From Thiohalorhabdus denitrificans (GTDB lineage: Bacteria > Pseudomonadota > Gammaproteobacteria > Thiohalorhabdales > Thiohalorhabdaceae), in the NCBI RefSeq assembly GCF_001399755.1, contig NZ_LJCP01000010.1, forward strand, positions 434,001 through 498,000: DNA of 64,000 nucleotides, read 5' to 3'. The notes under the pieces were generated by a model. That model saw only the letters and a list, made by a program, of their open reading frames with translations, did not search any database and was not told the origin of the DNA. Of the stretch, positions 1 to 16,070 are shown piece after piece. Positions within the stretch are counted from its first letter, which is position 1. Each line of letters begins with the position of its first letter. A program made the translations under genes and the position numbers.

Positions 1-179
1 GCCCGTTCCGCTTGGGCCTCCTCCCGGGCCTCGCCCTGCATCTCCACCAGGTAGACCGCGCCGCCCAGAACCACCCCCACCAGGGCCGCCAGCACCAGGC
101 CGGCCTGGGCCATGCGGCGGGCCGCAAAGGGGACGGGGCGGGGCCAGAGCTCGGCCTTGTTGAGGTTGATCTGCCGCAT
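1..179 (-). CDS. PilN-like pilus assembly protein, partial (3' end outside window)
   Basis: Only the first 59 or so codons are present; the rest runs off the left edge. The N-terminus begins MRQINL, a short cytoplasmic start, followed by one hydrophobic segment (about residues 27-48) and then charged residues. This is the layout of PilN / MshI2-type inner-membrane proteins, whose N-terminal tail docks into a PilM-like actin-fold protein. Its ATG overlaps the TGA of the upstream PilM/MshI-like gene (ATGA), so the two are translationally coupled, as pilM-pilN usually are. The partner in front is the main support for the call; the ferredoxin-like periplasmic domain cannot be seen. Confidence 0.75.
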   Translation of the reverse strand, partial: MRQINLNKAELWPRPVPFAARRMAQAGLVLAALVGVVLGGAVYLVEMQGEAREEAQAER

Positions 180-1252
180 CAGGGCGCCTCCGTACCCTGT
201 AGCCGCAAGGCGGCCCCGAGGGCGTAGATGGCCTCCTGGGCCCGCACCTCCCCGGGGTCGGATTCCGGCTCGGAATCCATGGAGATGTCCATAAGGTCCC
301 GGGGATCGAGGAAGCGGAAGCCGCGTCCCAGCACTTCCTCAAGGCGCTCCACCAGCCCCTCCACCAGGGCCCCCTCCCCGGCCAGGTGGATCCGTTGCAC
401 CCCGGCCTCCCGGAAGCGGGAATCGTAGTAGTCCAGGGAGCGCTGGATCTCGAGGGCCAGACGCTCGGCGTAGCCGGTCAAGGCCTCCTGGCGGCTTTCT
501 CGCTCCCCTTCCGAAGGCCCCTCCTCGAAATGCAGGCCCCCGTCCCCCTCGGCTTCCGTGGCTTCCTCACCGGCCAGGGACAGGGCGCCCAGCTCCTCCC
601 GTACGTCCACGCCCAGGAGACGGCTGAAGATCAGCTCGCCGTCCCGGCTGATGGTGATGAGCGGGCTTTCGGGGTTGAGGATTACCAGGCAAGTTCCCGG
701 GGATTCCTCCCGGGGCAGGAGCAGGGCCAGATTGCGATGGGCCATGTCGGGGATGTCCACATCCCGCAGCTCCAGCCCTGCCTCCCGACAGGCGGTCACC
801 CGGGACCGTACGGTTTCCTGGCGCGCGGCCACCACGAACACCGGCGCCCCTTCCCCGGGGAGCTCCCGAACCGGAATGGGCAAGACATCCACCACGGCTT
901 CGTCCGCCGGGAAGTCGAGCAGATCCCGTACCCGCCACCTCATGGCCGCGGGCAGGTCCGCCTCCTCCACGCGGTCGGGGGCGTCGGTCAGGATGAGGTG
1001 GAACTGGGGACGGTAAAGCAGGGAAACGGCAGGGCAGCCCCGAAGCCCGAGGCGCTCCACGAACGGGGCCAGCAGTTGGGTCAGTCGCTCCGGGCCGGGC
1101 CTCCCGGTACCTTGCAGTGGGATACGGGACAGGGAAGCCGAGAGGGGGACGGATCCGCCGCCCCGCAGGGCTGCCAGGAGCAGAGCGTCCTGGCGCACAT
1201 CCACCGCAACGCTGAGGCCTTCGCAGCGGCGCTTCTTCTTGAAGATGGGCAA
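179..1252 (-). CDS. mshI: MSHA biogenesis protein MshI (PilM-like)
   Basis: A 357-residue soluble protein with the PilM/MshI layout: an N-terminal LSVAVDV strand typical of the actin-like fold, a central region similar to EpsL/PilM cytoplasmic domains, and no membrane segment. Proteins of this family sit on the cytoplasmic face of the pilus inner-membrane platform and bind the N-terminus of a PilN-type partner, which is the next gene. The acidic insert around residues 225-255 is low complexity. The 165 bases upstream, back to mshQ, are relatively AT-rich and hold a palindrome (TCCTATAGGA, 1379-1388) and a TAATCC/GGATTA inverted repeat (1376-1381, 1408-1413), so this gene may have its own promoter. 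In Vibrio mshI comes at the start of the locus; here it follows mshQ. Confidence 0.8.
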   Translation of the reverse strand: MPIFKKKRRCEGLSVAVDVRQDALLLAALRGGGSVPLSASLSRIPLQGTGRPGPERLTQLLAPFVERLGLRGCPAVSLLYRPQFHLILTDAPDRVEEADLPAAMRWRVRDLLDFPADEAVVDVLPIPVRELPGEGAPVFVVAARQETVRSRVTACREAGLELRDVDIPDMAHRNLALLLPREESPGTCLVILNPESPLITISRDGELIFSRLLGVDVREELGALSLAGEEATEAEGDGGLHFEEGPSEGERESRQEALTGYAERLALEIQRSLDYYDSRFREAGVQRIHLAGEGALVEGLVERLEEVLGRGFRFLDPRDLMDISMDSEPESDPGEVRAQEAIYALGAALRLQGTEAP

Positions 1253-1417: not shown

Positions 1418-4195
1418 CTAAGGGAAAACCTCCTGCCAGTACAGGATCCGGTCATCCCCCCGGTAGCGGCCGAAGGTGGCGCGCACCTGCGGGTACTCCG
1501 TAAAGGAGCCGTCGCCGTCGCGGTCCACCTCCAGCCAGGGCAGCTCCACCAGGTCGGCGCGAACGTCCACATATCCCGTGCTCCCCTCGCCCGGCGCCGC
1601 CAGGGTCAGGGTACCGTACCCACCGGCCAGGCCGGTTGTCGCCGTGCCCTGGGTGGTCCCTCCGGTGCCCCCCAGCAGGCCCACTTCCCCCTCGGCGGCC
1701 ACCCAGGAACCCCCATCGTCCAGCTGCAGCCGGACGGCATCGGCGGCCCCGCTCATGCTGATGGGGGTGCAATCGTCCTCGCGGTTGGCCACGAAACGCT
1801 CGCCGTCGTAGTACTCGGCGCGGGCCGGGACGTTCAGGTCCGTGAGCTCCGAGCCGTGGGCGTTCTCCAGGGCCAGGCGCCCGAACCGGACCGGGCCGGC
1901 TCCCCGGATGGGGGAGATCTCGTAGGTGGGCGGGCTGGCCCCGCCCTCGTAACGGATGCCGTCCCCATCCTCCACGTCGAAGCGCAGCTTGACCCACTGG
2001 TCCCCCGCCCCGATGGGGGCCGCGGGTGCGGAGGGACGGTCGTAGACCAGGGTGCCCTGGTAGGGGATGGTCGCCTGGCCGGCGGTTTCGGCGGTGTCCG
2101 GGAGCTGATGGGTGGCGCCGGAAGCATCCAGCGCGTGGTCGTCGCCGTCGTCGGCGGCCTCCTCGGTCCCCGAGTCGTCCTCGTAGCGGTCGGCGAAGTC
2201 CGGTAGGCGCCAGAAGGGGTCCTCGTAGTTGCGCGTGGTGGAACCGTCGCCCGCCACCGCCGTAACCACCACCTCGGGCGCACCCGCCCAGCCGAAGGGC
2301 TCGCCGAAGTAGGTGGAGCCCCCGGCGCAGGCCGGCTCGAAGGCGAACCCGGAATGGGCCAGCTCGAAGCGGTCGGGAACGAAACGGCCGGCCGTGGCCG
2401 GCGCCTCGGTGGCGGCCTGGCAGCCGAAGCGGCCCTCTCCGGCCGGGTCCGCGCTCGGGTCATTGCTGCTCGATCCGGTGACGCAATGGTCGTCGGAGCG
2501 GTCCCCGCTGCGGGCGGCGAAGTTGCCCTGGTCGGTCAGGGTCAGCTCCAGGACCCCCACCTCCTCGTAGCTCGCGCTGTCGGTCCGGTAGCCGGTGCTG
2601 TCCCCGGCGAAGGTCACCTGGGAGGGGCTGCGGGTACCCAGGGTGTCGCCGCCATCGTGGGGCGGCTCCATAAGGCCCCAGTTCATGGAGGTCGCTTGGT
2701 CGAAGCCGCTGACGGCGGTACCGCCGGCGGTGAAGGCCGCCCCTTCCAGGGTGAAGGCCCGCCCGGCCTTGTGGCAGGGCTCGGAGCCGCCGGCGGCCTG
2801 GCATGCAGCGTCGTTGGTTCCGTCCAGACGGCGTCCGGTGCCGGCCGTCTCCCAGTCCGCGTCCCGGGCTTCAACGGTCAGGTGGTGGGGACGGACGGTG
2901 AAGGAATCCTGACTGCAGCCCTGGGCGGGGGCGGAATTCCCTCCCGGATTGGCCTCGGTGACGCGGATCCGGGCGGCCCCGATGGCATTGCCGTAGGTGA
3001 GCCCGGAAACGGTGGTCCGGCTCTCGTTGTTGAAGGTGGCCGTGCCTAAGGAGGCCACCGCCGTCAGGTCGGCGCAGTCGGAGGCGCTGGTGGCGTCCAC
3101 CAGCTCCAGCTCCACATCCCCATTGAAATTCTGGGGGTTTCCGGCGTTGTTCAGGGAAACCAAGTCCACGTCGAAGCTGCCCCCAGAAACCTTGGTGTGG
3201 AGGGGCCCGTCGATGGCGTCGGCACCCGGTTCCAACGCGTTGAACCCCCCCAGCCCTACCGTGCCGGAGGTGGGGCCGGGTGCCTTCAGGATGACGCTGT
3301 CCCAGGAAAAATCCTCGGACGCGGCGATCTCGAGCGTATAGTCGCCCGCCTCCAGGGTCGTATCGATGGGGAAGGCGGCCGGCGTGTCCTGCAGGTCGGG
3401 GCTGTCCCCGGTAATGGTGTCGCTCCATACCTCGGTCCCGCCCCGACGCAGCGTCAGCTCGCCGCCTGACCCAGTCACCTCACGAAGCCGGAACATCCAG
3501 AGCGCATTGAAATAGGTATCCGCCCCCAACGAGAAGCCCACGGTGATGGGACCTCCCTCCCCCGAATCCGGGTAGAAAAACGGCTCCTGACCGGAATTGC
3601 CCAGGTCTTCGTAGTCGTCGTCTTGAAGATCCTGGCCGTCCCCGGCATGCCGCCGGCGGACCCAATGCATGCTTTGGGTGGCCGCCCCGGACTGGGTCAC
3701 CAGGGTCATTTCCGAGAAGCTCAGGTCGTTCTCGGTCCGGCTGACCCCCGTGCAGTTTCCGATACCGCCATTACTTTTGATGCAGTCGCTGGTGACGGCC
3801 AGAGTGTGCAGGCCGGGGGCAAGGGTCGGGGCGGGGTCCAGAGCCAGGGTGTCGTTCCCGGCATCCCAGTTGCCGCTGTAGTCGGTGCCGTCGATGGTCA
3901 CGTAGGGCCGGCCATTGTCGTTCTCCATGACCAGTCCCTCGAAGCGGACCTCGGTAACGGTCACCTCCTCGGTAAGGTGGAAATGGGTGGGATAAACCCC
4001 CATCCGGTCGAACAGCACCGGGTCCAACGGCACGAAGGTTCCGCCCAGCTCGTCGTCGCCGATGTGCTGCTCGCCCGGCAGGGAGACATCCGCGCCGGCC
4101 GGCCCGGCGGCCAAGAGGAGGACAACCGCCGCCAGCGCCGCCACCCGGCCCGTCGCGCTTGGGAAGCGGGACTTGTATCCGGTCATGGGCTTCAT
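1418..4195 (-). CDS. mshQ: MSHA biogenesis protein MshQ (DUF6701 family), secreted
   Basis: A large secreted protein of 925 residues. The chosen ATG gives MKPMTGYKSRF followed by a hydrophobic core and an AGPAGA-type signal cleavage site near residue 34, and it overlaps the mshP stop by four bases (ATGA). The frame stays open further upstream, but only by running through mshP. After a lectin-like or beta-sandwich N-terminal half, the C-terminal 450 or so residues match the DUF6701 type: Cys-containing segments, many Asp/Gly/Thr residues, and an RFVPDRFEL motif that I associate with MshQ. It is the last gene of the mshC-D-O-P-Q run and probably forms an outer or tip component of the pilus. Its exact role is not established. 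Confidence 0.8.
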   Translation of the reverse strand: MKPMTGYKSRFPSATGRVAALAAVVLLLAAGPAGADVSLPGEQHIGDDELGGTFVPLDPVLFDRMGVYPTHFHLTEEVTVTEVRFEGLVMENDNGRPYVTIDGTDYSGNWDAGNDTLALDPAPTLAPGLHTLAVTSDCIKSNGGIGNCTGVSRTENDLSFSEMTLVTQSGAATQSMHWVRRRHAGDGQDLQDDDYEDLGNSGQEPFFYPDSGEGGPITVGFSLGADTYFNALWMFRLREVTGSGGELTLRRGGTEVWSDTITGDSPDLQDTPAAFPIDTTLEAGDYTLEIAASEDFSWDSVILKAPGPTSGTVGLGGFNALEPGADAIDGPLHTKVSGGSFDVDLVSLNNAGNPQNFNGDVELELVDATSASDCADLTAVASLGTATFNNESRTTVSGLTYGNAIGAARIRVTEANPGGNSAPAQGCSQDSFTVRPHHLTVEARDADWETAGTGRRLDGTNDAACQAAGGSEPCHKAGRAFTLEGAAFTAGGTAVSGFDQATSMNWGLMEPPHDGGDTLGTRSPSQVTFAGDSTGYRTDSASYEEVGVLELTLTDQGNFAARSGDRSDDHCVTGSSSNDPSADPAGEGRFGCQAATEAPATAGRFVPDRFELAHSGFAFEPACAGGSTYFGEPFGWAGAPEVVVTAVAGDGSTTRNYEDPFWRLPDFADRYEDDSGTEEAADDGDDHALDASGATHQLPDTAETAGQATIPYQGTLVYDRPSAPAAPIGAGDQWVKLRFDVEDGDGIRYEGGASPPTYEISPIRGAGPVRFGRLALENAHGSELTDLNVPARAEYYDGERFVANREDDCTPISMSGAADAVRLQLDDGGSWVAAEGEVGLLGGTGGTTQGTATTGLAGGYGTLTLAAPGEGSTGYVDVRADLVELPWLEVDRDGDGSFTEYPQVRATFGRYRGDDRILYWQEVFP

Positions 4196-4632
4196 TCTTG
4201 GAAGCGCACCTCCAGCCGCCGCCGAGTCAGCATGTCGGCATCCCCCGGATGGCATTCGCCCACCACCTCCATGCGAAAGAGCGCCACCTCGCCACCCGGC
4301 GCGGTTACCGTCCCGAAGCGCTCCAGCCCATTGGGATCGTTGCCGCCGATGCGCGTGGGGCCACAGGGGGACAGGCCGCCCGCGGCCCCGGCCAGCAGGT
4401 CGCCCTCGGGGCCAAGGTCCGACCGGCCCCGGGCCAGGGCCTGATACAGCCCCCACTGCCCCGCCGATTCCGCCGCGTGCAGGGCCTGGATGGAGGCCAT
4501 CTCCCGGGACACGGCCCGCTGCTCGGTGGTCACCAGACGCAGCAGGGCCGTGCCCAGCATGGCCAGCACCACGATGACGAAGATGGCGGCGATCAGGCCC
4601 ACTCCTCGCTCGTTTCGGCAGTCAGGGCGCAT
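4192..4632 (-). CDS. mshP: MSHA minor pilin-like protein MshP
   Basis: A 146-residue protein starting MRPDCRNERGVGLIAAIFVIVVL: a short basic leader, Gly, then a hydrophobic helix. It lacks the usual FTLxE start and has no Glu at position +5, which is typical of MshP/PilX-like minor pseudopilins. An HAAESAGQWGLY segment (about residues 51-62) fits the PilX/MshP pattern just after the helix. It overlaps mshO by 11 bases upstream and mshQ by four downstream, so it belongs to one transcription unit of minor pilins. The position between mshO and mshQ is as in Vibrio and Shewanella. Confidence 0.78.
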   Translation of the reverse strand: MRPDCRNERGVGLIAAIFVIVVLAMLGTALLRLVTTEQRAVSREMASIQALHAAESAGQWGLYQALARGRSDLGPEGDLLAGAAGGLSPCGPTRIGGNDPNGLERFGTVTAPGGEVALFRMEVVGECHPGDADMLTRRRLEVRFQE

Positions 4633-5467
4633 TGCGGACCTGCACCTCCTGGAGGAAATCCAGCGTCTCCCCGGAGCCGGGATGCTCCAGGGCCAGATAG
4701 AGGCGCACCAGGGCGCTGCGGGTCGGGGTGGCCGGCTTGTGGGTGAAGCGGCACTCGGCCACCCCCTCGGCGAGCACCACGCCGTGGGCGGCGCAATGGT
4801 CGGTGGGGGAGTCCAGCCCGTCCATCCCTCCCAGGGGTCCGGACACCGCCAGCCGCAGCTCCCCCTCCGCGGGGGCGCAGCACAGGGTGACCTGCCGGTC
4901 CACGGCGTAGACCCGGCGGGCGGGCGAATGGCGCGGGAAGGAATCGGAGCCGTCCAGGGTGAGGCGATGCTCGATGGTCTCGCCGGAGGAGCGGTCGTCC
5001 ACCGCAGCGATCCGGGAGCGGGGTCCCTGCCCCGCCCCGGTGTGGAGATCGTCGCCGTCCAAGGGGTACACCACCAACTGCCAGTCCGGCCCCAGGCCCT
5101 CCAGGCCGAAGGCCGTGAAGGTGTCGCCGTCCCGGCGGACCTGCAGCCGGGAGGCGGCGGGTCCGGTGGCCACGTAGCGCCCCCCCGCGCTGGCGGCCAG
5201 GAAGCTCATGCGCGCCGCCCCGTCGCAGGCGCCGTCGTCGCAGCGGTAAGAGCCCGGAACCCCCCGACGCAGCTCGCGGACCGCACGCTCCACGGCCACC
5301 CGCCCGCTTCCCGCCAGATCCTGGCGAGCCTCGGCGTCCGTATAGCCCCGCACCATGCCGCCGAGGAGGCTGGCCCCCACGTAGCCCAGGATCCCCACCA
5401 GCACCACGACCACCACCAGCTCCACCAGGGTGAAGCCGCGGGAGTCGGTATGGCGCGCGGGGAGCAT
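4622..5467 (-). CDS. mshO: MSHA minor pilin MshO (prepilin-type)
   Basis: 281 residues from the ATG at 5467, giving MLPARHTDSRG then FTLVELVVVVVLVGIL: a type III prepilin leader with Gly at -1, Phe at +1 and Glu at +5. The frame continues upstream for 70 codons, but those codons overlap mshD and come before the leader, so the later start is preferred. It lies two bases after the mshD stop. The C-terminal domain is Cys-rich (for example YRCDDGACDG near residue 75), suggesting disulfides in the exported head. MshO is thought to be part of the minor-pilin tip complex that primes pilus assembly. Confidence 0.82.
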   Translation of the reverse strand: MLPARHTDSRGFTLVELVVVVVLVGILGYVGASLLGGMVRGYTDAEARQDLAGSGRVAVERAVRELRRGVPGSYRCDDGACDGAARMSFLAASAGGRYVATGPAASRLQVRRDGDTFTAFGLEGLGPDWQLVVYPLDGDDLHTGAGQGPRSRIAAVDDRSSGETIEHRLTLDGSDSFPRHSPARRVYAVDRQVTLCCAPAEGELRLAVSGPLGGMDGLDSPTDHCAAHGVVLAEGVAECRFTHKPATPTRSALVRLYLALEHPGSGETLDFLQEVQVRNAP

Positions 5468-5469
5468 GG

Positions 5470-6039
5470 CTAGAAGTTCAGGCGGTAGGTGGAGAAGGTG
5501 GTGGAAAGGCCGCGCGGGTCGGTGACGGTCACGTCGATGCGCTTGGCGTCGTCGGGCCGGACGTCCGGCAGCTCCGAACCTACCCCCACGGCCACAGCGA
5601 TCTCCACGCAATAGCCGGCGTAGCGGCCGGGGCGCTCGTTCCCGGAGGCGTCGCGCAGCGGCGCGGCGTGGCCACACGCCGTCCCTTCTGCGAGGCCGTG
5701 GAAATCGTCCACGTCGTTCTCCGTGCCGCGGTCCTCCCCGCCGTCGCGGCCGCAGGAACCGGGACAGACCGCCGCCGGGCCGCCGGAGCAGGCGGTGTCG
5801 CCGGCGTCCACGCAGCCTCCGCCGGGGGGCGTGGCCTCGTCCCAGGCCTTGGTAAAGGCCTCCTCCATGTAGGACTGCCCCAGCTCCACGGCCTTGATGC
5901 GCAGCTGGGGATCGGGGCTGGAGCGGAAGCCCTGGCCGAGCAGCAGAAGGACGGCGGTGGCGCCCACGGCGATGACCACCATGGCCACCACCAGCTCCAC
6001 CAGCGTCAGCCCCGCCTCCGGCCTAGCCATCCCGGACAT
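5470..6039 (-). CDS. mshD: MSHA minor pilin MshD (prepilin-type)
   Basis: 189 residues. The start at 6039 gives MSGMARPEAG then LTLVELVVAMVVIAV; the Gly before LTLVE is the prepilin peptidase site and Glu is at +5. An alternative ATG at 6030 also keeps the leader. The head has several Cys residues (positions roughly 65-115), probably paired as disulfides. The gene overlaps the mshC stop by 17 bases and is followed two bases later by mshO. Gene order C-D-O-P-Q is the standard MSHA minor-pilin order. Confidence 0.8.
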   Translation of the reverse strand: MSGMARPEAGLTLVELVVAMVVIAVGATAVLLLLGQGFRSSPDPQLRIKAVELGQSYMEEAFTKAWDEATPPGGGCVDAGDTACSGGPAAVCPGSCGRDGGEDRGTENDVDDFHGLAEGTACGHAAPLRDASGNERPGRYAGYCVEIAVAVGVGSELPDVRPDDAKRIDVTVTDPRGLSTTFSTYRLNF

Positions 6040-6529
6040 GGCCGGTCTCGCCGAGGACCGTGACCGACACCCGGCCCCCGCCCGCCGACAGCCCCCGGTC
6101 GACCACCGCGCCATCACCGTCCACGCTGCGGCCCAGGGGGTCGAAGTACACCGTGTCCGCGGCGCCGAAGGCCAAGCCCGGGCCCAGGGTCCAATGCGCG
6201 CCGTTTCCGCCGGGGGGCGGCAGCGGCTCCCAGGCGCAGTCGGCGGGCCGCTGCGCCCCGCTCGCGCACCGCCCTATACGGAAGGCCCCCGACCCGGGGT
6301 CCCCGGGCGAGACCCGGACGTAGCGGGCACGGGACATGGCCTGCTGCTGGGCGTAGCGCAGGCCGGACACCAGCCGGTCACCACCGGCCCGCACCTGGAA
6401 GCCCCCTACCCCCGGCATCCGCGGCAGCAGAACCGCCGCCAGCACGCCGAGGACCACCAGGACGGCCGCCATCTCCACCAGGGTGAAGCCGCGTTGGTTT
6501 CGGGGGATCATGCCCGGGATATGGCCCAT
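6023..6529 (-). CDS. mshC: MSHA minor pilin MshC (GspH/FimT-like)
   Basis: 168 residues with a prepilin leader: NQRG followed by FTLVEMAAVLVVLGVL, with Glu at +5. Two starts are possible, ATG 6529 and ATG 6511; neither has a strong ribosome site, and the shorter form gives the more usual leader length. The head has a GspH-like pattern (AQQQAMSRARYVRVS near residue 65) and a Cys pair (about residues 89 and 99). It is the first gene of the minor-pilin run and is separated from mshA by 206 bases containing a terminator-like hairpin, so it may be less expressed than mshA. Confidence 0.8.
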   Translation of the reverse strand: MGHIPGMIPRNQRGFTLVEMAAVLVVLGVLAAVLLPRMPGVGGFQVRAGGDRLVSGLRYAQQQAMSRARYVRVSPGDPGSGAFRIGRCASGAQRPADCAWEPLPPPGGNGAHWTLGPGLAFGAADTVYFDPLGRSVDGDGAVVDRGLSAGGGRVSVTVLGETGHVRDG

Positions 6530-6735: not shown

Positions 6736-7155
6736 TCAGTCAGAACTGATAGTTCCGGCCGTGGCGTTGTAGTAGATCGAGCTACTACCCGGGCTGAAAT
6801 CCAGGAGTGGATCCCCATCACTCCCCCATCCCGCATCAGTCCAGTTGGAATTGTCCGCAGGGTTGCTCTGAAGGGTGTTTAAAAGGTTGGAACCATCGGT
6901 GGGCCATCCACTACTATTCATGGTAATAGTTTCGGATCCCATGGTCACATCGCCACTTTGCCCCTGGGCCAACCACTTGCTGTGGGCCAAAGACAGGCCT
7001 CCCTGCAGGCTGGATTCCACCCCCTGATAGGCCGCCTGATTGGCCTCGTCGGTGAGGTCCACGAACCGGGGCAGGGCCACGGCGGCCAGAATGCCCAGGA
7101 TCACGATCACCACCACCACCTCGATGAGGGTAAAACCCCCTTGTCCCTTCTGCAT
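6736..7155 (-). CDS. mshA: MSHA major pilin MshA
   Basis: 139 residues from the ATG at 7155, preceded by a good ribosome site (AGGAGCGGAG). The precursor starts MQKGQGG, then FTLIEVVVVIVILGIL, a type IVa pilin leader with Gly at -1 and Glu at +5. The conserved helix continues as AAVALPRFVDL, typical of MshA. The globular head is short, Ser/Thr/Asn-rich and lacks Cys, so it has no disulfide D-region; the C-terminus ends TAGTISSD. The 3' part of the gene and the spacer behind it are visibly lower in GC (about 50-60%) than the surroundings (about 70%), suggesting the head has been exchanged or is under diversifying selection. It has its own promoter and a terminator-like hairpin. Confidence 0.9.
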   Translation of the reverse strand: MQKGQGGFTLIEVVVVIVILGILAAVALPRFVDLTDEANQAAYQGVESSLQGGLSLAHSKWLAQGQSGDVTMGSETITMNSSGWPTDGSNLLNTLQSNPADNSNWTDAGWGSDGDPLLDFSPGSSSIYYNATAGTISSD

Positions 7156-7277: not shown

Positions 7278-7655
7278 TTATTCAAGATCCCGGGGCGGGG
7301 CCAGCTCGCCGCTGTCCGGGTCGTAGCGGTAGGGGCGGCCGAAGGGGTCCAGCACCCGGCCCCGGTCGTCCACCAGGGTGTCCCGCCGGGGATCGAGGGC
7401 GCCACCGATGATGTCCCGGGGGTCCTCGCCCAGCACCTCGCGCAGGCTCCCGGGCCACTCCCCGTGCCGGTAGCGGTGAAGCTGGACGCGCAGCTCAAGG
7501 AGGCGGTGCTCGTGCTGGGCCACCGTGGCCAGGCCGCGCTCCTCCAGGGCCTCGTAGCGGTCCAGGACCACGCCGCTCATGATGAGGATAAAGAGCAGCA
7601 CCAGCGCCCATTCCAGGGCCCGGGCGCGGTGGGGCCGGACGTCAAGGCGCTCCAA
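7278..7655 (-). CDS. MshF-like small membrane protein
   Basis: 125 residues from a TTG start at 7655, chosen because GGAGG lies six bases upstream and because it overlaps the previous stop by 14 bases. One N-terminal membrane segment (about residues 14-30, ALVLLFILIMSGVVL) is followed by a helical, Arg-rich periplasmic part and a DPFGRPYRYDPDSG tail. The tail resembles the calcium-loop end of pseudopilins, but there is no prepilin leader. In Vibrio the gene between mshG and the pilins is mshF, a poorly characterised single-pass protein, and position plus topology fit. I do not recognise the family with certainty. Confidence 0.55.
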   Translation of the reverse strand: MERLDVRPHRARALEWALVLLFILIMSGVVLDRYEALEERGLATVAQHEHRLLELRVQLHRYRHGEWPGSLREVLGEDPRDIIGGALDPRRDTLVDDRGRVLDPFGRPYRYDPDSGELAPPRDLE

Positions 7656-9669
7656 GCCCGTCCTCCATGTCCCGGATGCGCGTGCGGAGGGCGGACCGGG
7701 CCTCCCCGGACCCTTCCGGCACCCGCGCCAGGGCCGACCGGGTCAGAGCCAGGGCGCCGGCGGGATCGCCGGTGCGCTCCCGCAGCTCCGCGCTGCGCAG
7801 GAGGAGCTGCGCCCCTTGCGTGCCCGGGTACCGCCACGGCAGCCCCTCCTCCAGCACGGTCCGGGCCGCCTCGAGGCGCCCGGACCGTTGATGGTGGTCC
7901 GCCAGCGCCAGACGGGCCCCGAAGAGCCGCGGGTCCTTGGCCAGCGCGCGTTCCAAGGCGGCCGCGGCCCGCTGCCGGGGCGCGTCCTCCATGGCCTCGG
8001 GGGCCACTTGATAGAGCCGGGCACGAAGCCGGTCCAGCTCCGCCCGGGCCGGGTTGCGCCGTTGGGCGCGATCGAGCAGGTGGTGGGCCTCGCGGTAGAT
8101 GGCCCGGCGCTGGCCGACGTCCAGCCCGCTTTCCGGGGCCCCCAGGGCGGCCACCCGGATCTCGGCACCCAGGGCCCAGGGGGTGTCGCTGTTGGGGATG
8201 ATCGCCCGGGCGTAGCGGAAGTAGCGCAGTGCTTCCCCGGTTTCGCCCGCCTCCACCGCCGCCTTGCCCCAGCGGATCAGCCGATCCCCGGCGGCGGCCG
8301 CGCCCAGGTTCATACCCACGAGGGCCACCCCCCCCGCCAGGATGGCGGCCCAGACCCGCGGATGGGCCCGGCGCGGCAGGGCCACGGCCGCCCGCTCCCG
8401 GCCCAGCGCCGCCTCGCAGCGCAGCTGCCAGGCGGCCAGGACCACGCCGGCGCCGATGAGGATGGGCAGGATGTAGAGGTGGAAGGTCGCGTGGGTGTGC
8501 ACCGCCACCGCCAGCAGGCCGGCGAAGGGGCCGAGGATCCGCAGGCGCCCGGTTGGCCCGACACCCTCGGCACGGACCGCCCGCACCGTCTGCACGAGCA
8601 CCGCGATCAGGAACAGGTAGAACAGCGCAGGTCCGGCGACCCCCACTTCCGTCCAGAGCTGCAGCGGGTCCATGTGGGCGTAGAAGCCGCCCGATCCGCT
8701 GTCCTCCGGCAGGCGGTAGCGGGGGTAGTAGAGGAAGAAGGTGCCCAGCCCGGTGCCCAGCCAGGGCCGGTCGAGGACCATGTGCCAGGTCCCCTCCCAG
8801 ATAGCGAACCGGGTCAGGAGGCTGGTCTGCGCCCCCACCGCCCCCAGGGTCTCCAGACGCTGACCCACCACCCCACCCGCCCAGCCGTTCATGAAGGCGA
8901 AGACCGCTCCGCCGCCCAGGGCCAGGGCCACCAGCCGCGGCCAGGTCGCCCCCGGCGCCCCCCGGGAGACCGCCAGCAGCACCGCCAGCCCCAGGCCGGC
9001 CCCCAGGTAGGCACCCCGGCTCTGGGTGGCGATGACCCCGGCGAGCAGCAGCAACGCCCCGGCCAGCAGCCAGCCGGCGCGGCGGCGCCCGGCCGTGCGC
9101 AGGTAGCCGGCCACCACCGGCAGCAGGGCCAGATTGAACAGCCCGGCCAGGTTGTTGGGGTTGATCAGGGGATGGTGGGCCCGGTAGCCGTAGACCTCGG
9201 GGAGGGCGAAGAACTGGACCAGGGCCCACAGGGCCAGGAGCCCGGCGGCCACGAAGAAACCGCCCAGAGCCGCCCGGGTCCAGACCTCCGGACGCGGCGC
9301 CAGCACCAGAGTAAAGAAGGTCAGCGGCAGGGCGCTCAACCACCAGTAGTAGAGGCTGCTGGTGTAGACCACGGTGGACCACGCCAGGCTGACCGCCAGA
9401 AAGACCCACCACGTCACCAGGCACCCAGCGGCGGGCGAGCGCGGAACCCGCCAGCCGGCGTGGATGCCCGGGCCCAGGGCCAGGGCCAGGCAGAAGGCCA
9501 GCAGGATCCCGGTGGCGGCGAGGAGGGGGATGTGCAGCCCGTTGAAGAACAGGCCGGTGCCGAAGGCGGCGGCCAGCAGGGTTAGGGTCAGGACACCGCG
9601 GCCCTCCAGGCGTCCCGCATCCCTCGCCCTTTCCTCCCCGGCGCCTGCTGCGTACCCGGCTCCCGCCAT
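7642..9669 (-). CDS. O-antigen ligase/Wzy-like membrane protein with C-terminal repeat domain (possible pilin glycosyltransferase)
   Basis: 675 residues, start ATG 9669 immediately after the mshG stop. About a dozen hydrophobic segments fill residues 25-470. The Wzy_C signature is visible: TRFAIWEGTW, DRPWLGTGLGTF, then AHMDPLQLWTEVG, where the His-containing loop before a glutamate-Val-Gly corresponds to the periplasmic loop of WaaL, Wzy and PglL. The C-terminal 200 residues are Ala/Arg-rich helical repeats of TPR type, as in PglL/PilO-type O-oligosaccharyltransferases and in many Wzy_C proteins. WaaL/PglL-family enzymes move a lipid-linked glycan to lipid A or to protein in the periplasm. 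Lying inside the pilus operon, between mshG and mshF, it is a candidate pilin glycosyltransferase; this is inference from context. Confidence 0.75.
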   Translation of the reverse strand: MAGAGYAAGAGEERARDAGRLEGRGVLTLTLLAAAFGTGLFFNGLHIPLLAATGILLAFCLALALGPGIHAGWRVPRSPAAGCLVTWWVFLAVSLAWSTVVYTSSLYYWWLSALPLTFFTLVLAPRPEVWTRAALGGFFVAAGLLALWALVQFFALPEVYGYRAHHPLINPNNLAGLFNLALLPVVAGYLRTAGRRRAGWLLAGALLLLAGVIATQSRGAYLGAGLGLAVLLAVSRGAPGATWPRLVALALGGGAVFAFMNGWAGGVVGQRLETLGAVGAQTSLLTRFAIWEGTWHMVLDRPWLGTGLGTFFLYYPRYRLPEDSGSGGFYAHMDPLQLWTEVGVAGPALFYLFLIAVLVQTVRAVRAEGVGPTGRLRILGPFAGLLAVAVHTHATFHLYILPILIGAGVVLAAWQLRCEAALGRERAAVALPRRAHPRVWAAILAGGVALVGMNLGAAAAGDRLIRWGKAAVEAGETGEALRYFRYARAIIPNSDTPWALGAEIRVAALGAPESGLDVGQRRAIYREAHHLLDRAQRRNPARAELDRLRARLYQVAPEAMEDAPRQRAAAALERALAKDPRLFGARLALADHHQRSGRLEAARTVLEEGLPWRYPGTQGAQLLLRSAELRERTGDPAGALALTRSALARVPEGSGEARSALRTRIRDMEDGLGAP

Positions 9670-9670
9670 G

Positions 9671-10891
9671 CTAGACGGCCCGCGCCATGTCCCACATGGG
9701 CAGGAATACCCCCAGGGCCAGCACCAGGACCATGGCGCCAATGACGGCAATGAGCACCGGCTCGATCAGGCTCGACAGGGTGTCGATGCGCAGGTCCGCC
9801 TCGCGCTCGTGGTAGTCGGCCACCCGGTCCATCATCTCGTCCACGGCCCCGGCCTCCTCCCCCACCTCGATCATCTGCAGCACCGTCAGGGGGAACAGCT
9901 CCTCCCTCCGGGCGGCGCGGTGCAGGGAGTCGCCCCGCTCCACCCCCGCCCGCATGGACGCCACGTGCTCCTCCACGTAGCGGTTGCCCACGGCGCGGCC
10001 GGCGACGGTGAGCCCCTCCACCACCGGCACCCCGGACGCGGCGGTGGTGGCGAAGGTGCGCGTGAAACGGGCCATGGCCAGCTTGTAGAGGATGTCCCCC
10101 ACCACCGGCAGGCGCAGCTTCCAGCGGTCCCAGCGCCGTCGCCCCCCCTCCGTGGCGATGTAGCGGCGGAAGGCGAGGAGGCCGGCGATGGCAAGCAGGG
10201 CCACCAGCCAGCCTTGGCTGCGGGTGAAGTCGGAGAAGCCGATCAATAGCCGGGTGGGCAGGGGCAGCTCGGTGTCCAGGTCGGCGAACAGGCCCACGAA
10301 CTTGGGGATGACCACCACGTTGAGGATCACCATGGCGACCGCGATGGCCACCACCACCATGGCCGGATAGCGCAAAGCCTGCTTGGCGCGGTCGCGGGTG
10401 TCCTTCTCGTGCTCCAGGTAGCCGGCGAGGCGCTCGAAGGCCTCCGCGAGCTCGCCGCTCGCCTCGCCCACCCGGACCATGTGGACGAAGAGCTCGGGGA
10501 AGACGTCGGGATATTGCTCCAGGCCGTCGGCCAGGGTGCGGCCGGCCTCCACGGTCTCACGTACCCCTTGCAGGACCTCGCCCAGGCGCGGATTGGGCAC
10601 CGATTCCACCTGGCCAGCCAGCGCCCGCAGCAGGGGCACCCCAGCCCGGAGCAGGGTGGCCATCTGGCGGCTGAAGAGGATGAGCGCCTCCAGGGGAACC
10701 TTACGGGAAAGCAGACGGTTGCGCAGCGCCGCCCCGTCCGCCCCCTCCCCGCCCCGGGCCTTCACGATCTCCAGGGGCACGGCGTTGTCCGCCGACAGAC
10801 GGTCCGCAGCGTCCCGAGAGGACTCGGCCTCCAGGGTGCCGATGACGGTCTGGCCCTGGGCGTCCTGGGCCCGGTAGCGGAAGGTAGGCAT
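9671..10891 (-). CDS. mshG: MSHA inner-membrane platform protein MshG (GspF/PilC family)
   Basis: 406 residues, the usual length for GspF/PilC. It starts MPTFRYRAQDAQGQ, typical of the family, and contains two T2SSF domains (about residues 70-195 and 270-395), each ending in hydrophobic helices; three membrane segments are clear (about 170-190, 220-240, 375-395). FSRQMATLLRAGVPLLRAL and ARFTRTFATTAASGVPVVEGL are the duplicated helix motifs. It forms the membrane platform that the ATPase turns to extrude pilin. The gene starts directly after the mshE stop (no gap). Confidence 0.9.
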   Translation of the reverse strand: MPTFRYRAQDAQGQTVIGTLEAESSRDAADRLSADNAVPLEIVKARGGEGADGAALRNRLLSRKVPLEALILFSRQMATLLRAGVPLLRALAGQVESVPNPRLGEVLQGVRETVEAGRTLADGLEQYPDVFPELFVHMVRVGEASGELAEAFERLAGYLEHEKDTRDRAKQALRYPAMVVVAIAVAMVILNVVVIPKFVGLFADLDTELPLPTRLLIGFSDFTRSQGWLVALLAIAGLLAFRRYIATEGGRRRWDRWKLRLPVVGDILYKLAMARFTRTFATTAASGVPVVEGLTVAGRAVGNRYVEEHVASMRAGVERGDSLHRAARREELFPLTVLQMIEVGEEAGAVDEMMDRVADYHEREADLRIDTLSSLIEPVLIAVIGAMVLVLALGVFLPMWDMARAV

Positions 10892-12613
10892 TCAGGGCGT
10901 TCCCAGGTGGGCGTATTCCTGGTCCTCGGCGGTGACCCGCAGCACCTCCTCCAGGCTGGTGACGCCGGCTCTGACCTTCGCCAGGCCCGATTCGCGCAGG
11001 GTGCGGTGGGCCTCCTGGCCCTCCAGGGCGCACTCCACCGCCCCGCGATCGTTGCGGCTGATGGCCTCCCGCACCGGCCCGTCCACCTCCATCAGCTCGT
11101 AGATCCCCACCCGACCCCGGAAGCCGGTGTTGTTGCACTCCACGCAGCCCTCCCCGCGGTAGAAAATGGTGCCCTCGGCCTCCCGTGGATCCAGGCCCAA
11201 CCCCTGGAGGACGGCCGCGGAGGGCCGGTCCTCCACCCGGCAGCTGGGGCAGATGCGGCGCACCAGCCGCTGGGCCACCACACCGCGGAGGCTGGAGGCC
11301 ACCAGGAAGGGCTCCAGGCCCATGTCGATCAGGCGGGTGACGGTGCCGGGTGCGTCGTTGGTGTGGAGCGTGGAGAACACGAGGTGGCCGGTCAGGGCGG
11401 CACGGATGGCGATGCTGCCCGTCTCCTGGTCGCGGATCTCGCCCACCATGACGGTGTCCGGGTCCTGGCGCAGGATGGAGCGCAGGACGCGGGCGAAGGT
11501 AAGGTCGATGCGGGGATTCACCTGCACCTGGCTGACCAGGGGCAGCTGGTACTCCACCGGATCCTCCACCGTGATGATCTTCTGGCCGGTGTCGTTGATC
11601 CGGTTCAGGGCGGCATAGAGGGTGGTGGTCTTGCCGGAGCCGGTGGGCCCGGTCACCAGCACCATGCCGTGGGGAATCCGCACGAGGTGCTCGAACCGCC
11701 GGCGGACCTCTTCCTCCATGCCCAGCTCCTCCAGCCCGATGAGGCCCGCGGACTGGTCAAGGAGGCGCATCACGGCGGCCTCGCCGTTCTGGATGGGCAT
11801 GGTGGACAGCCGCACATCAAGGCGATGCCCACCTACCGTGATCCGAAAGCGCCCGTCCTGGGGGAGGCGGCGCTCGGCGATGTCGAGCTCGGCCATCAGC
11901 TTGAGCCGCGAGACCACCGCCTCGGCCACCTGCCGATCGGTCCGCATCCGCTCCTGCAGCACACCGTCGATCCGGCAGCGGACCAGTAGGGCGTCCTCGT
12001 CGGGCTCTACATGGATGTCGGAGCTGCCCATCTGCACGGCCTGGGTAAACAGGGCATTGATGAGGCGGGCCACCGGGGCGTCCTCGGAGCCCGGCTCCAC
12101 CTCGGGGAGACCGCGCTGGGATTCCTCCCCGAGCTCCGCGCCGATTTCGTCGGCGAGGGAGCTCATCTGGTGGCTCCGGGTGAACACCCGATCCAGCGCC
12201 CGCAGGAGGGCCGACTCCGACGCCACCGCCGGCTCCACCTCCGCACCGAGAAGGTGCTCAAGGCGGTCCACCGCCATGACGTTGGTGGGGTCGGCCATGG
12301 CCACCTGGTAGGTGCCGTTCGGTTTTCGCTTGAGGGGAAGAGCCCGGAACCTGCGGGCCTGGGATTCGGAGAGGGAATGGGCGGCGTCCGGGTCCACCCG
12401 GTACTGGGCGAGGTCGACAAGCTCCACGTCCAGCTGGTCGGCAAGGAACTCGAGCAGCCGCTGCTCGGTGATCAGGCCCCGTTCGACCAGGATTTTGCCG
12501 AGCTTCTTGCCGCTTTCCTGCTGGATACGCAGGGCTTCGCCGAGCTGGGCCTCGGAGATGACCCCGTACTTGACCAGGAGGTCGCCCAGACGGATTTTCT
12601 TGAGCTTCGCCAC
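10892..12613 (-). CDS. mshE: MSHA pilus extension ATPase MshE (GspE/PilB family) with N-terminal MshEN c-di-GMP domain
   Basis: 573 residues with a GTG start. The N-terminus has two 24-residue MshEN motifs separated by exactly five residues: residues 8-31 (R8 L9 G10, G17, L24, L28, Q31) and 37-60 (K37 L38 G39, G46, L53, L57, Q60). In Vibrio MshE this 24-5-24 pattern binds c-di-GMP. The ATPase core has Walker A GPTGSGKT (322-329), an Asp box (around EDPVEY, 350-355), Walker B VMVGEIRD (388-395), a His box (HLVFSTLHT, from 410) and the four-Cys zinc motif (CPSC and CVEC). It powers pilus extension and is the first msh gene here, about 100 bases after DUF2065. No clear promoter was found in that gap. 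Confidence 0.92.
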   Translation of the reverse strand: MAKLKKIRLGDLLVKYGVISEAQLGEALRIQQESGKKLGKILVERGLITEQRLLEFLADQLDVELVDLAQYRVDPDAAHSLSESQARRFRALPLKRKPNGTYQVAMADPTNVMAVDRLEHLLGAEVEPAVASESALLRALDRVFTRSHQMSSLADEIGAELGEESQRGLPEVEPGSEDAPVARLINALFTQAVQMGSSDIHVEPDEDALLVRCRIDGVLQERMRTDRQVAEAVVSRLKLMAELDIAERRLPQDGRFRITVGGHRLDVRLSTMPIQNGEAAVMRLLDQSAGLIGLEELGMEEEVRRRFEHLVRIPHGMVLVTGPTGSGKTTTLYAALNRINDTGQKIITVEDPVEYQLPLVSQVQVNPRIDLTFARVLRSILRQDPDTVMVGEIRDQETGSIAIRAALTGHLVFSTLHTNDAPGTVTRLIDMGLEPFLVASSLRGVVAQRLVRRICPSCRVEDRPSAAVLQGLGLDPREAEGTIFYRGEGCVECNNTGFRGRVGIYELMEVDGPVREAISRNDRGAVECALEGQEAHRTLRESGLAKVRAGVTSLEEVLRVTAEDQEYAHLGTP

Positions 12614-13792: not shown

Positions 13793-15039
13793 CGGCTCTC
13801 TCCCTCCTGGATACGCTCGAGACGTCGTTCAAACTGCTGCCGGACCCGTTCGGTGCGTCCCGCCTGCCCCTCGTCCTGCCCGGAAGCCTGCTGGTCCTGG
13901 CCGTTCTGGGCCTTGCCGGAGTCGCCCTGGCGCTGCTTCAGCACCTCCTGGATGGGCAGGTAGAGGAGGTTGCCGGATTCGGGGATGTCCACCATCACCT
14001 TCTCGTTACGCTCCAGGACCCGCTCCATGGTCTCCAGGTACAGGCGCTGGCTGGTGACCTCGGGGGCGTTCTGGTACTCCTCGAAGACGTCCCGGAAGCG
14101 GGAGGCGCTGCCCTGGGCGGCGTTCACGATACGGGCCCGGTAGCCCTCGGCCTCCTGGAGAATCCGCTCGGCCTGACCACGGGCCCGAGGGAGGATGTCG
14201 TTGGCGTAGGCCTGAGCCTCGTTCACGGCCCGGGTGCGGTCCTCCCGGGCGCTGATCACGTCACGGAAGGCCGGCCGCACCGGATCAGGCGCCTGGGCGC
14301 TCTGCAGGGCGAGGTCGTCCACCTGCAGGCCGGTGTTGTAGTGGTTGAGGATGGACTGCATCAGCTCCTGGGTCTGCTGGGCGACCTCGGCCCGGGCCTG
14401 GGTCAGGACGTCGTCGATGGGCCGCTGCCCCACCACCTCGCGGATGGCCGTCTCCGCCGCGGAGCGCACAGTGCCGTCGGGGTCGCTGACCTCGAAGAGG
14501 TACTTGGCGGCATCGGAGATGTGGTACTGCACGGCGAACTGCAGGTCCACGATGGCCTCGTCCCCGGTGAGCATCAGGGCTTCCTTGGGAACGTGCATGG
14601 AGTCCTGCCGGCCGGGCCGGTCCCGGAAGCCCACCTCGATGCGGCGAACCTGGGTGACCTTGGGCGTATGGACGGATTCGATGGGCCACGGCAGGTGATA
14701 GTGGAGGCCCGGCTCGGTAGTAATGGTGTGCTTGCCGAACCGCTTCACCACGCCCTGCTCGGCGGGGTTCACAACATAGATGCCGCTGGCCAACCACAAC
14801 AGCAGGGCGATGCCGACCACGATGGCGATGCCACGACCGCTGAAGCCGGGCCCACCGCCGCCGAGGATTCCACCCCCGCCACCTCCGGAGGAGCCGCCGA
14901 ACTTGGCCTTGAGCTTGCGGATAATCTCATCGAGGTCGGGGGGCTGCTGGCCGCCGCCACCGCTGCCGCCCCCGCCCCATTGCCCCCAGGGGTTCTTGTC
15001 GTTTCCCTTGTTGGGGCCGCCGGGCTCATTCCATGCCAC
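13789..15039 (-). CDS. hflK: FtsH protease modulator HflK
   Basis: 416 residues from a GTG at 15039, chosen because it gives MAWNEPGG, matching the usual HflK start, with AGGAGG a few bases upstream; a second GTG at 15045 is in frame. A Gly/Pro-rich cytoplasmic N-terminus precedes one membrane helix (about 70-88), an SPFH domain and a coiled coil. It partners HflC. In most gammaproteobacteria hfq and hflX lie between miaA and hflK; here the miaA stop is only about 90 bases upstream and both genes are absent. Confidence 0.95.
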   Translation of the reverse strand: MAWNEPGGPNKGNDKNPWGQWGGGGSGGGGQQPPDLDEIIRKLKAKFGGSSGGGGGGILGGGGPGFSGRGIAIVVGIALLLWLASGIYVVNPAEQGVVKRFGKHTITTEPGLHYHLPWPIESVHTPKVTQVRRIEVGFRDRPGRQDSMHVPKEALMLTGDEAIVDLQFAVQYHISDAAKYLFEVSDPDGTVRSAAETAIREVVGQRPIDDVLTQARAEVAQQTQELMQSILNHYNTGLQVDDLALQSAQAPDPVRPAFRDVISAREDRTRAVNEAQAYANDILPRARGQAERILQEAEGYRARIVNAAQGSASRFRDVFEEYQNAPEVTSQRLYLETMERVLERNEKVMVDIPESGNLLYLPIQEVLKQRQGDSGKAQNGQDQQASGQDEGQAGRTERVRQQFERRLERIQEGESR

Positions 15040-15128
15040 GTTCACCCTCCTGAAGTGGCCATCAAGTGCATTGCAGTTACCGTAGAATCGGGCAGTTTAG
15101 GGGGGAAAAAGGCACAGGACAAGCCTTC

Positions 15129-16067
15129 TCACCGGCCTGTCCAGCCCAGAGGACGAAGAAACTCCCGCACCCGCTCCAGCACCGCCTCCCGCTCCTCGGG
15201 GCGGTACCATTCCACCCCCGGCTCGCGCCGCAGCCAAGTAAGCTGACGCTTGGCCAGCCGCCGGGTGGCCACCACGCCCGCCTCCAGGAGCTCCTCGCGG
15301 CTCCGCCGCCCCTCCAGGCATTCCCGCACCTGCCGATAGCCCACGGAGCGCAGGGCTGGCGAGTCCGGATCCACACCGGCCTCCACCAGGGCGCGGACCT
15401 CCTCCTCGAGCCCCTGCTCCAGCATGGCACGGAAGCGCGCCTCGATACGCCGCCACAGCTCCTTCCGGGGCAGCCACAGGGCCAGGCGCAGGATAGGGAA
15501 ATCCGCGGGAGGCAGGCCTTCCTCCTGCTGGAGCTCCGAAAGGGGTCTTCCCGTGGCCTCGCAGACCTCCAGGGCGCGCAGGACGCGCTGGCCGTCGCGG
15601 GGATGGATCCGCGCCGCGGCCTGCGGATCCAGGCGCCGCAGGCGCTCGTGCAGGGCGGCCCACCCCTCGCGCTCGGCCTCCCCCCGCAGCCGGTCCCGCA
15701 GCTCCCGGTCCGCGGTTGGCAGCTCCGCCAGCCCTTCGGCGAAGGCGCGGAAGTACAATCCCGTCCCGCCCACGAGCAGCGGCACCCGGCCCCGGGCCAG
15801 GCATGCCTCCGCCTCCCGGCGCGCGGCCCGCGCATAGCCCCCCGCCGAGAAGGGCTCGGCCGGATCGCGGAAATCCATCAGGGCGTGCGGATACCGGGCG
15901 CGCACCTCCGGGGAGGGCTTGGCGGTGCCCACGTCCATGCCCCGATACACCTGGGCGGAGTCGGCATTGATCAGGGCCACCGGGAATTCGTCGGCGATCG
16001 CCAGGGCCAGATCGGTCTTGCCGGTGGCGGTGGGCCCCATGAGGAACAGCGCGCAGCGCTCCCCCAC
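15129..16067 (-). CDS. miaA: tRNA dimethylallyltransferase MiaA
   Basis: 312 residues from a GTG at 16067, three bases after the mutL stop. The P-loop GPTATGKT is at residues 11-18, followed by DSAQVYRGMDVGTAKPS (substrate and Mg binding) and GGTGLYFRAF, all standard for MiaA. It adds dimethylallyl to A37 of tRNAs reading UNN codons; tRNA-Leu(CAA), encoded in this window, is of that class. Typical length. Confidence 0.96.
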   Translation of the reverse strand: MGERCALFLMGPTATGKTDLALAIADEFPVALINADSAQVYRGMDVGTAKPSPEVRARYPHALMDFRDPAEPFSAGGYARAARREAEACLARGRVPLLVGGTGLYFRAFAEGLAELPTADRELRDRLRGEAEREGWAALHERLRRLDPQAAARIHPRDGQRVLRALEVCEATGRPLSELQQEEGLPPADFPILRLALWLPRKELWRRIEARFRAMLEQGLEEEVRALVEAGVDPDSPALRSVGYRQVRECLEGRRSREELLEAGVVATRRLAKRQLTWLRREPGVEWYRPEEREAVLERVREFLRPLGWTGR

Positions 16068-16070
16068 CAG

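Follow-up and report, generated by a model that had tools for sequence, protein, structure and literature searches.

What role does a gene for a Wzy_C membrane protein play inside the operon of the MSHA pilus, a structure with which many environmental bacteria start surface attachment? The question is raised by a window of 64,000 nucleotides, the whole stretch of DNA analyzed, from Thiohalorhabdus denitrificans (contig NZ_LJCP01000010.1, positions 434,001 to 498,000). The msh operon is located on the minus strand (Table 1) and runs from mshE and mshG through the ligase gene and mshF to the major pilin, the pseudopilins, mshP, mshQ, and mshI, all within the window; genes similar to mshJ, mshK, and mshL follow the mshI-like gene beyond the window end (locus L065). 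The msh gene names other than mshE and mshG are those that we presume from gene order, weak similarity, and prior knowledge of such operons; the mshF-like gene has no match in Pfam or NCBIfam. The genes hflK and hflC, named by eye, are located upstream of mshE, and the same pair (80–84% identical) precedes mshE in a genome of the same genus.

The reading frame of the ligase is open throughout its translation. Its ATG at position 9669 is separated by one base from the mshG stop codon, which ends at 9671, and its own end, with the stop codon at 7642–7644, is overlapped over 14 bases by the mshF-like gene, which starts with a TTG at 7655. A GGAGGA motif, recognized by eye, lies 5 bases ahead of this TTG. 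The initial annotation had described a membrane protein with Wzy_C and a repeat tail between mshG and the pilin genes, adjoining mshG without a gap and overlapping mshF by 14 bases. Domain matches, the structure model, and the operon map agree with this description and the overlap is confirmed, whereas the adjacency to mshG has to be corrected by the single intervening base. The gene is more than a chance reading frame, since a same-genus genome carries a homologue in the same place and homologues (E ≤ 1e-10, at most three candidates scored per genome) were detected in 29 of 369 genomes of Gammaproteobacteria, most of them in open frames of approximately 630–710 aa.

Table 1. Features of the msh operon and of the ligase gene in the window (positions of the window; all on the minus strand).
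Feature	Position	Strand	Basis
mshE ATPase, MshEN and T2SSE domains	10892..12613	-	domain matches
mshG, T2SSF inner-membrane platform	9671..10891	-	domain match
Wzy_C ligase with TPR tail (675 aa), a candidate O-oligosaccharyltransferase for pilin	7642..9669	-	ORF reading, Pfam, structure model
Wzy_C region, residues 204-350, with R218, R287, H332, D334	8620..9060	-	calculated from the residue positions
TPR domain at the C terminus, residues 457-675, predicted to be periplasmic	7645..8301	-	Pfam, model
GGAGGA, likely mshF ribosome-binding site within the ligase gene end	7661..7666	-	read by eye
mshF-like gene, TTG start, 14-base overlap with the ligase gene	7278..7655	-	named by position
Major pilin resembling MshA, the proposed acceptor; cysteine-free, C terminus ...TISSD	6736..7155	-	
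Minor pseudopilin, mshC-like, GspH domain	6023..6529	-	
Minor pseudopilin, mshD-like; start approximate	5470..6117	-	
Minor pseudopilin, mshO-like; start approximate	4622..5677	-	
mshP-like, weak PilX_N match	4192..4632	-	
mshQ-like large protein; start approximate	1418..4456	-	named by position
mshI-like (PilM_2)	179..1252	-	

Fold and ligase-site residues

Two Pfam domains were assigned to the ligase, Wzy_C (PF04932; residues 204–350, E = 1.9e-18, 67.1 bits against a cut-off of 31.7) and TPR_19 (residues 566–614, E = 8.8e-9). The NCBIfam scan gave sub-threshold matches only, including one of 29 bits to the exosortase-A-associated O-glycosylation ligase TIGR03097 (cut-off 188.1), and no match to TfpM (NF058641); neither Pfam nor NCBIfam yielded a family specific to the TPR-tailed ligase. 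In a Foldseek comparison with solved structures, the AlphaFold model (pLDDT 93.2, pTM 0.92; 44 input sequences, from the window and the related-locus search only) matched WaaL 7tpg first (E = 2.0e-6). Residues 21–424 superpose on this structure with Z 25.6 and rmsd 4.9 over 357 residues, and the next row, FtsW, is ten units lower (Z 15.8). From approximately residue 457 onward, structural matches are to TPR proteins of many kinds, the pilus protein PilF (Z 12.9) being one among many others. The helices of the model form 13 membrane spans if residues 264–344 are taken as a loop. With the N terminus placed inside, the loops that are then cytoplasmic hold 11 Lys/Arg residues vs. 1 in the other short loops, and the model would put both the catalytic loop and the TPR tail in the periplasm, the latter on the active-site side. 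The Wzy_C and TPR_19 matches and the WaaL-like model thus bear out the earlier identification of a ligase with a TPR tail inside the msh operon.

The ligase-site residues are nearly invariant in the 44 homologues: R287 and H332 are conserved in all, R218 in 43, and D334 in at least 43. In the alignment, R218, R287, and H332 match R224, R298, and H349 of PglL, which are described as the equivalents of WaaL R215, R288, and H338 (PMC3643930). The same source lists Q178, N180, G316, G318, H400, E404, and P406 as residues that PglLs conserve and WaaL does not. According to an alignment with two PglL_A proteins found in this analysis, N180 and H400 have equivalents in the ligase, N172 (44/44 homologues) and H391 (43/44), and those two non-pilin Wzy_C proteins of the genome that were aligned (L151 and L152; L154 was left out) lack the counterpart of H400. 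Equivalents of G316 and G318 are present as well, and they do not discriminate, since the non-pilin Wzy_C proteins of this genome also have them. The positions of Q178, E404, and P406 are not kept, being N170, T395, and H397 in the window ligase; across the 44 homologues, Q was found in 2, E in none listed, and P in 1.

Neither PglL_A (PF15864) nor Wzy_C_2 (PF11846) matches the window ligase at E ≤ 1, whereas the same PglL_A scan detects PF15864 in L235 and, with a sub-threshold score, also in L236; Wzy_C_2 gave weak matches in 2 of 16 homologues (best E = 0.0038). Membership in PglL is ruled out by sequence, as both domains and the Q178/E404/P406 residues are missing. A comparison of the profile of the ligase family with the two PglL_A proteins gave a probability of 98.6% over 260 columns. 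PglL_A matches were obtained in only 2 of 143 searched genomes of the class, and both genes (L235:367-2160 and L236:955-2706) adjoin a PilA-type pilin.

The established systems differ from the window ligase in various ways. Pilin-linked PglLs are well documented (21/31 in Schulz et al., 2013; PMC3643930). The ligase resembles these enzymes and the Neisseria PglL in Wzy_C, in the R224/R298/H349, N180, G316, G318, and H400 equivalents, and in a frequent position beside a pilin gene, and it differs in the missing domains and residues named above, in the TPR tail, and in its location inside the msh operon. With the pilin-specific O-oligosaccharyltransferase (O-OTase) classes TfpO/PilO, TfpM, and PglS, reviewed in PMC12645811, it shares the linkage to one pilin and the WaaL-like core. 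WaaL 7tpg is alike in fold and ligase-site residues, but its match includes no TPR, its acceptor is LPS, and its gene belongs to an LPS locus. The absence of such a gene from the Vibrio locus, as claimed originally, needs a qualifier: pglL of V. cholerae precedes the msh operon, and the study that describes it (PMC6901666) raises MSHA components as speculative targets. The V. cholerae enzyme, likened here by description and location and not by sequence, is msh-adjacent, yet it is encoded outside the operon and is described as a general enzyme.

Linkage to pilin genes and history of the family

The genus mate G001 has the order mshE-mshG-ligase-pilin-pilin, with a ligase 45% identical to that of the window; the third genome of the genus (G002) is uninformative on this point, since its contig breaks 2 bases after mshG. 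Within the 369 gammaproteobacterial genomes, mshG was identified at 101 loci (E ≤ 1e-90), and 21 of them, all in genomes already among the 29, carry a ligase homologue. For the 71 mshG loci with at least 8 kb of downstream sequence, the count is 15. Linkage in this genome alone, which the initial annotation had set against its own proposal, is thus not what was observed, as these 21 loci and a second species of the genus carry the homologue. The pilus does not need the ligase, given that 80 of 101 mshG loci show no such gene, in regions many of which end at contig edges and which were screened with a profile of the TPR-tailed family that may miss other ligases.

A broader set of 96 distinct homologues, chosen by similarity and not at random, was pooled from two collections after removal of fragments, low scores, and duplicates; one of the collections comprises the best 80 of 145 matches (79 loci) in a profile search of genome contigs. 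Among the matches listed, 42 of the 96 homologues are in msh-type loci, 12 adjoin a PilA-type pilin, and 4 have a pilin motif at a distance of no more than 6 kb; no such motif accompanies 25, and 13 are undecidable at contig edges. The 41 msh-linked ligases besides that of the window are located after one or more msh pilins (26), upstream of mshE (6), on the strand opposite to mshG (4), between mshG and the pilins (2), or in pilin arrays without mshG in the sequence covered (3). The homologues in Acidithiobacillus have no pilin motif nearby. Two very large prepilin-like ORFs of 432 and 754 aa (L098:13665-14960 and 14942-17203) were observed approximately 2–5 kb from a ligase homologue, and at L056:4820-6518 a gap divides the similarity to MshE in two, which may reflect an insertion or poor conservation of that stretch.

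A control compared the positions of every Wzy_C place (31 in total) and every N_methyl pilin place (108) in the genomes G000, G311, G084, G133, G036, G021, and G125. Wzy_C frames of at least 600 aa are within 10 kb of an N_methyl pilin in 11 of 12 cases vs. 1 of 19 for shorter frames (Fisher p = 1.6e-6). The 11 include the pilA-linked paralogue from the window genome, a protein without a TPR match, and the 12 include a frame of 1136 aa in G125 that has only a partial Wzy_C and is 34 kb from a pilin. Since all seven genomes were already known to contain a homologue when they were picked, the control means that within such genomes pilin linkage marks long, TPR-sized Wzy_C proteins, and not Wzy_C generally.

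The msh-linked ligases do not form one clade, a single origin of all 42 being rejected (AU p = 1.6e-58), and most of them fall elsewhere in the tree than the window ligase. The smallest starred set that includes the latter has 11 rows, namely two genus members, eight alphaproteobacterial-type proteins without a pilin, and one protein that has a pilin-like gene at a distance of 3 kb; L067 and L068 of this set have unrelated neighbours, as read by eye. Among the matches listed, the window ligase and its genus mate group most closely with alphaproteobacterial proteins without a major pilin alongside. Details of the tree, obtained by a quick method with long branches and uneven composition, are unsure. 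The lack of a single clade, together with the varied positions of the ligase genes within msh loci, suggests repeated recruitment into such loci. On our reading, this recruitment favours a function with the pilus, but the family is evidently able to work without a pilin neighbour as well.

Candidate acceptor and other Wzy_C genes of the genome

MshA had been proposed as the acceptor on account of a Ser/Thr-rich head ending in SSD. The SSD end is present, but the Ser/Thr content of 0.25 is inside the range of all loci. Ligase-bearing (21) and ligase-free (62) loci show no difference in the Ser/Thr content (means 0.211 vs. 0.213, p = 0.95), Pro content, length, or C-terminal Ser/Thr (4/21 vs. 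9/62) of MshA. The acceptor residue of TfpO and TfpM is a Ser/Thr at the C terminus of the pilin (PMC12645811), whereas the window MshA ends in Asp. Gly (p = 0.0002), Ala (p = 0.008), and Cys (p = 0.008) differ in eight tests uncorrected for number and kinship, and these differences predict nothing by themselves. MshA thus points to no particular acceptor site. The window MshA is free of cysteine, in contrast to a minimum of two in each of the 82 further MshA-like pilins selected.

The genome codes for four further Wzy_C proteins. One of them (L153:9136-10878, G000:C6) follows a PilA-type pilin (11381-11713) in an apparent pil gene cluster and gave the sole TfpM match of the NCBIfam scan, a weak one (30 of 600 bits). 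Another is a PEP_O_lig_1 equivalog (428.8 bits, cut-off 188.1); the window ligase is similar to this exosortase-A group in Wzy_C and in its weak match, which is far under the cut-off, and the genome has a separate true member. Two Wzy_C genes are located in glycan clusters, one beside glycosyltransferase-like genes and one with a GT4 initiating-type enzyme and a flippase. The glycan cluster L151:8323-13593 (G000:C14), with a GC content at third codon positions of 0.35–0.43 in a GC-rich genome, was probably acquired. The other Wzy_C genes could cover other roles. With a pilA-linked and an msh-linked ligase, the genome may serve PilA and MSHA by separate enzymes; donor-pathway genes are present as well.

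Predicted role and its alternatives

The fold, the conserved ligase-site residues, the operon membership, and the recurrent pilin linkage are computed observations, and on this basis the protein is probably a WaaL-fold ligase of lipid-linked glycans, of the O-oligosaccharyltransferase kind and dedicated to the MSHA pilus. Pilin-linked O-OTases are a known kind; new is the TPR-tailed form inside the msh operon, acting most likely on the MSHA pilin. The originally claimed glycosylation of MshA is retained as pilin-directed O-glycosylation, the most likely predicted role, while the acceptor features of MshA do not speak for it. The R/R/H, N180, and H400 equivalents are shared with PglL, but PglL membership by sequence fails; as to TfpO/PilO and TfpM, MshA has no C-terminal Ser/Thr, and TfpM does not match.

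According to the mechanism that we propose, a glycan linked to undecaprenyl-PP and flipped to the periplasm would be bound in the membrane domain, and the periplasmic TPR tail (residues 457–675) would dock the acceptor. Most likely this acceptor would be the MshA pilin, or perhaps a minor pseudopilin, while still held in the membrane and not yet taken into the pilus at MshG. H332, R218, and R287 would then assist in passing the glycan on to the hydroxyl of a Ser or Thr in the pilin head, and co-translation of the ligase with mshG and mshF would match the enzyme to pilus output.

The protein might instead be a general O-OTase that modifies several periplasmic or outer-membrane proteins, MshA being at most one of them, with an incidental location in the msh operon. 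The nearest alphaproteobacterial relatives are not beside pilins, MshA of ligase-bearing loci has no distinguishing feature, and a broad spectrum is ascribed to the V. cholerae PglL encoded upstream of msh (PMC6901666); yet linkage to a major pilin, of msh or pilA type, recurs in many lineages, and the separate pilA-linked ligase of this genome suggests one enzyme per pilus, so that we regard a general enzyme as unlikely. Somewhat less likely still is that the enzyme, as a Wzy-type polymerase or ligase, serves an exopolysaccharide associated with the pilus and modifies no protein. Wzy_C alone cannot separate WaaL from O-OTases (PMC12645811), TPR proteins are known in polysaccharide systems, and there is a weak match to TIGR02917, but no glycosyltransferase, flippase, or export gene was found among the msh operon genes examined, and the pilin linkage is explained without any polysaccharide. 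A plain Wzy was rejected as the main reading on the msh location and the other Wzy_C genes of the genome.

WaaL was rejected as the main reading on the same two grounds. It is very improbable that the gene encodes the O-antigen ligase of the organism relocated into the msh operon: WaaL is the best fold match (Z 25.6), but the gene lies outside any LPS locus, glycan clusters encode two other Wzy_C proteins, the match to the solved WaaL ends at residue 424 and leaves the TPR tail unpaired, and the domains are common to WaaL and O-OTases (PMC12645811). A scaffold devoid of enzyme activity, whose TPR tail aids pilus assembly, has as little probability, the likeness of the TPR domain to PilF, among many other proteins, being outweighed by the near invariance of the ligase-site residues.

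Beyond the predicted pilin-directed O-OTase of this operon, we tentatively suggest, with slightly less than an even chance, that the family is a distinct, uncatalogued class of pilin-dedicated O-OTases, in which a periplasmic TPR domain replaces the Wzy_C_2 of PglL and captures the acceptor, and which entered MSHA and PilA loci on several occasions; many gammaproteobacterial MSHA pili would then be glycoproteins. A search of the open-licence literature gave no paper on a TPR-tailed ligase within msh loci. The family offers a new O-OTase type with a separate, likely acceptor-binding domain, and since the pilin linkage hands over a candidate acceptor for each enzyme, a direct test is feasible. 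If approximately one-fifth of msh loci code for their own pilin glycosylase, the surface chemistry of the pilus, adhesion, and phage reception in those bacteria would depend on the glycan. Two diverged tandem ligases per msh locus were observed at L046, L082, and L084, possibly one per pilin or per site.
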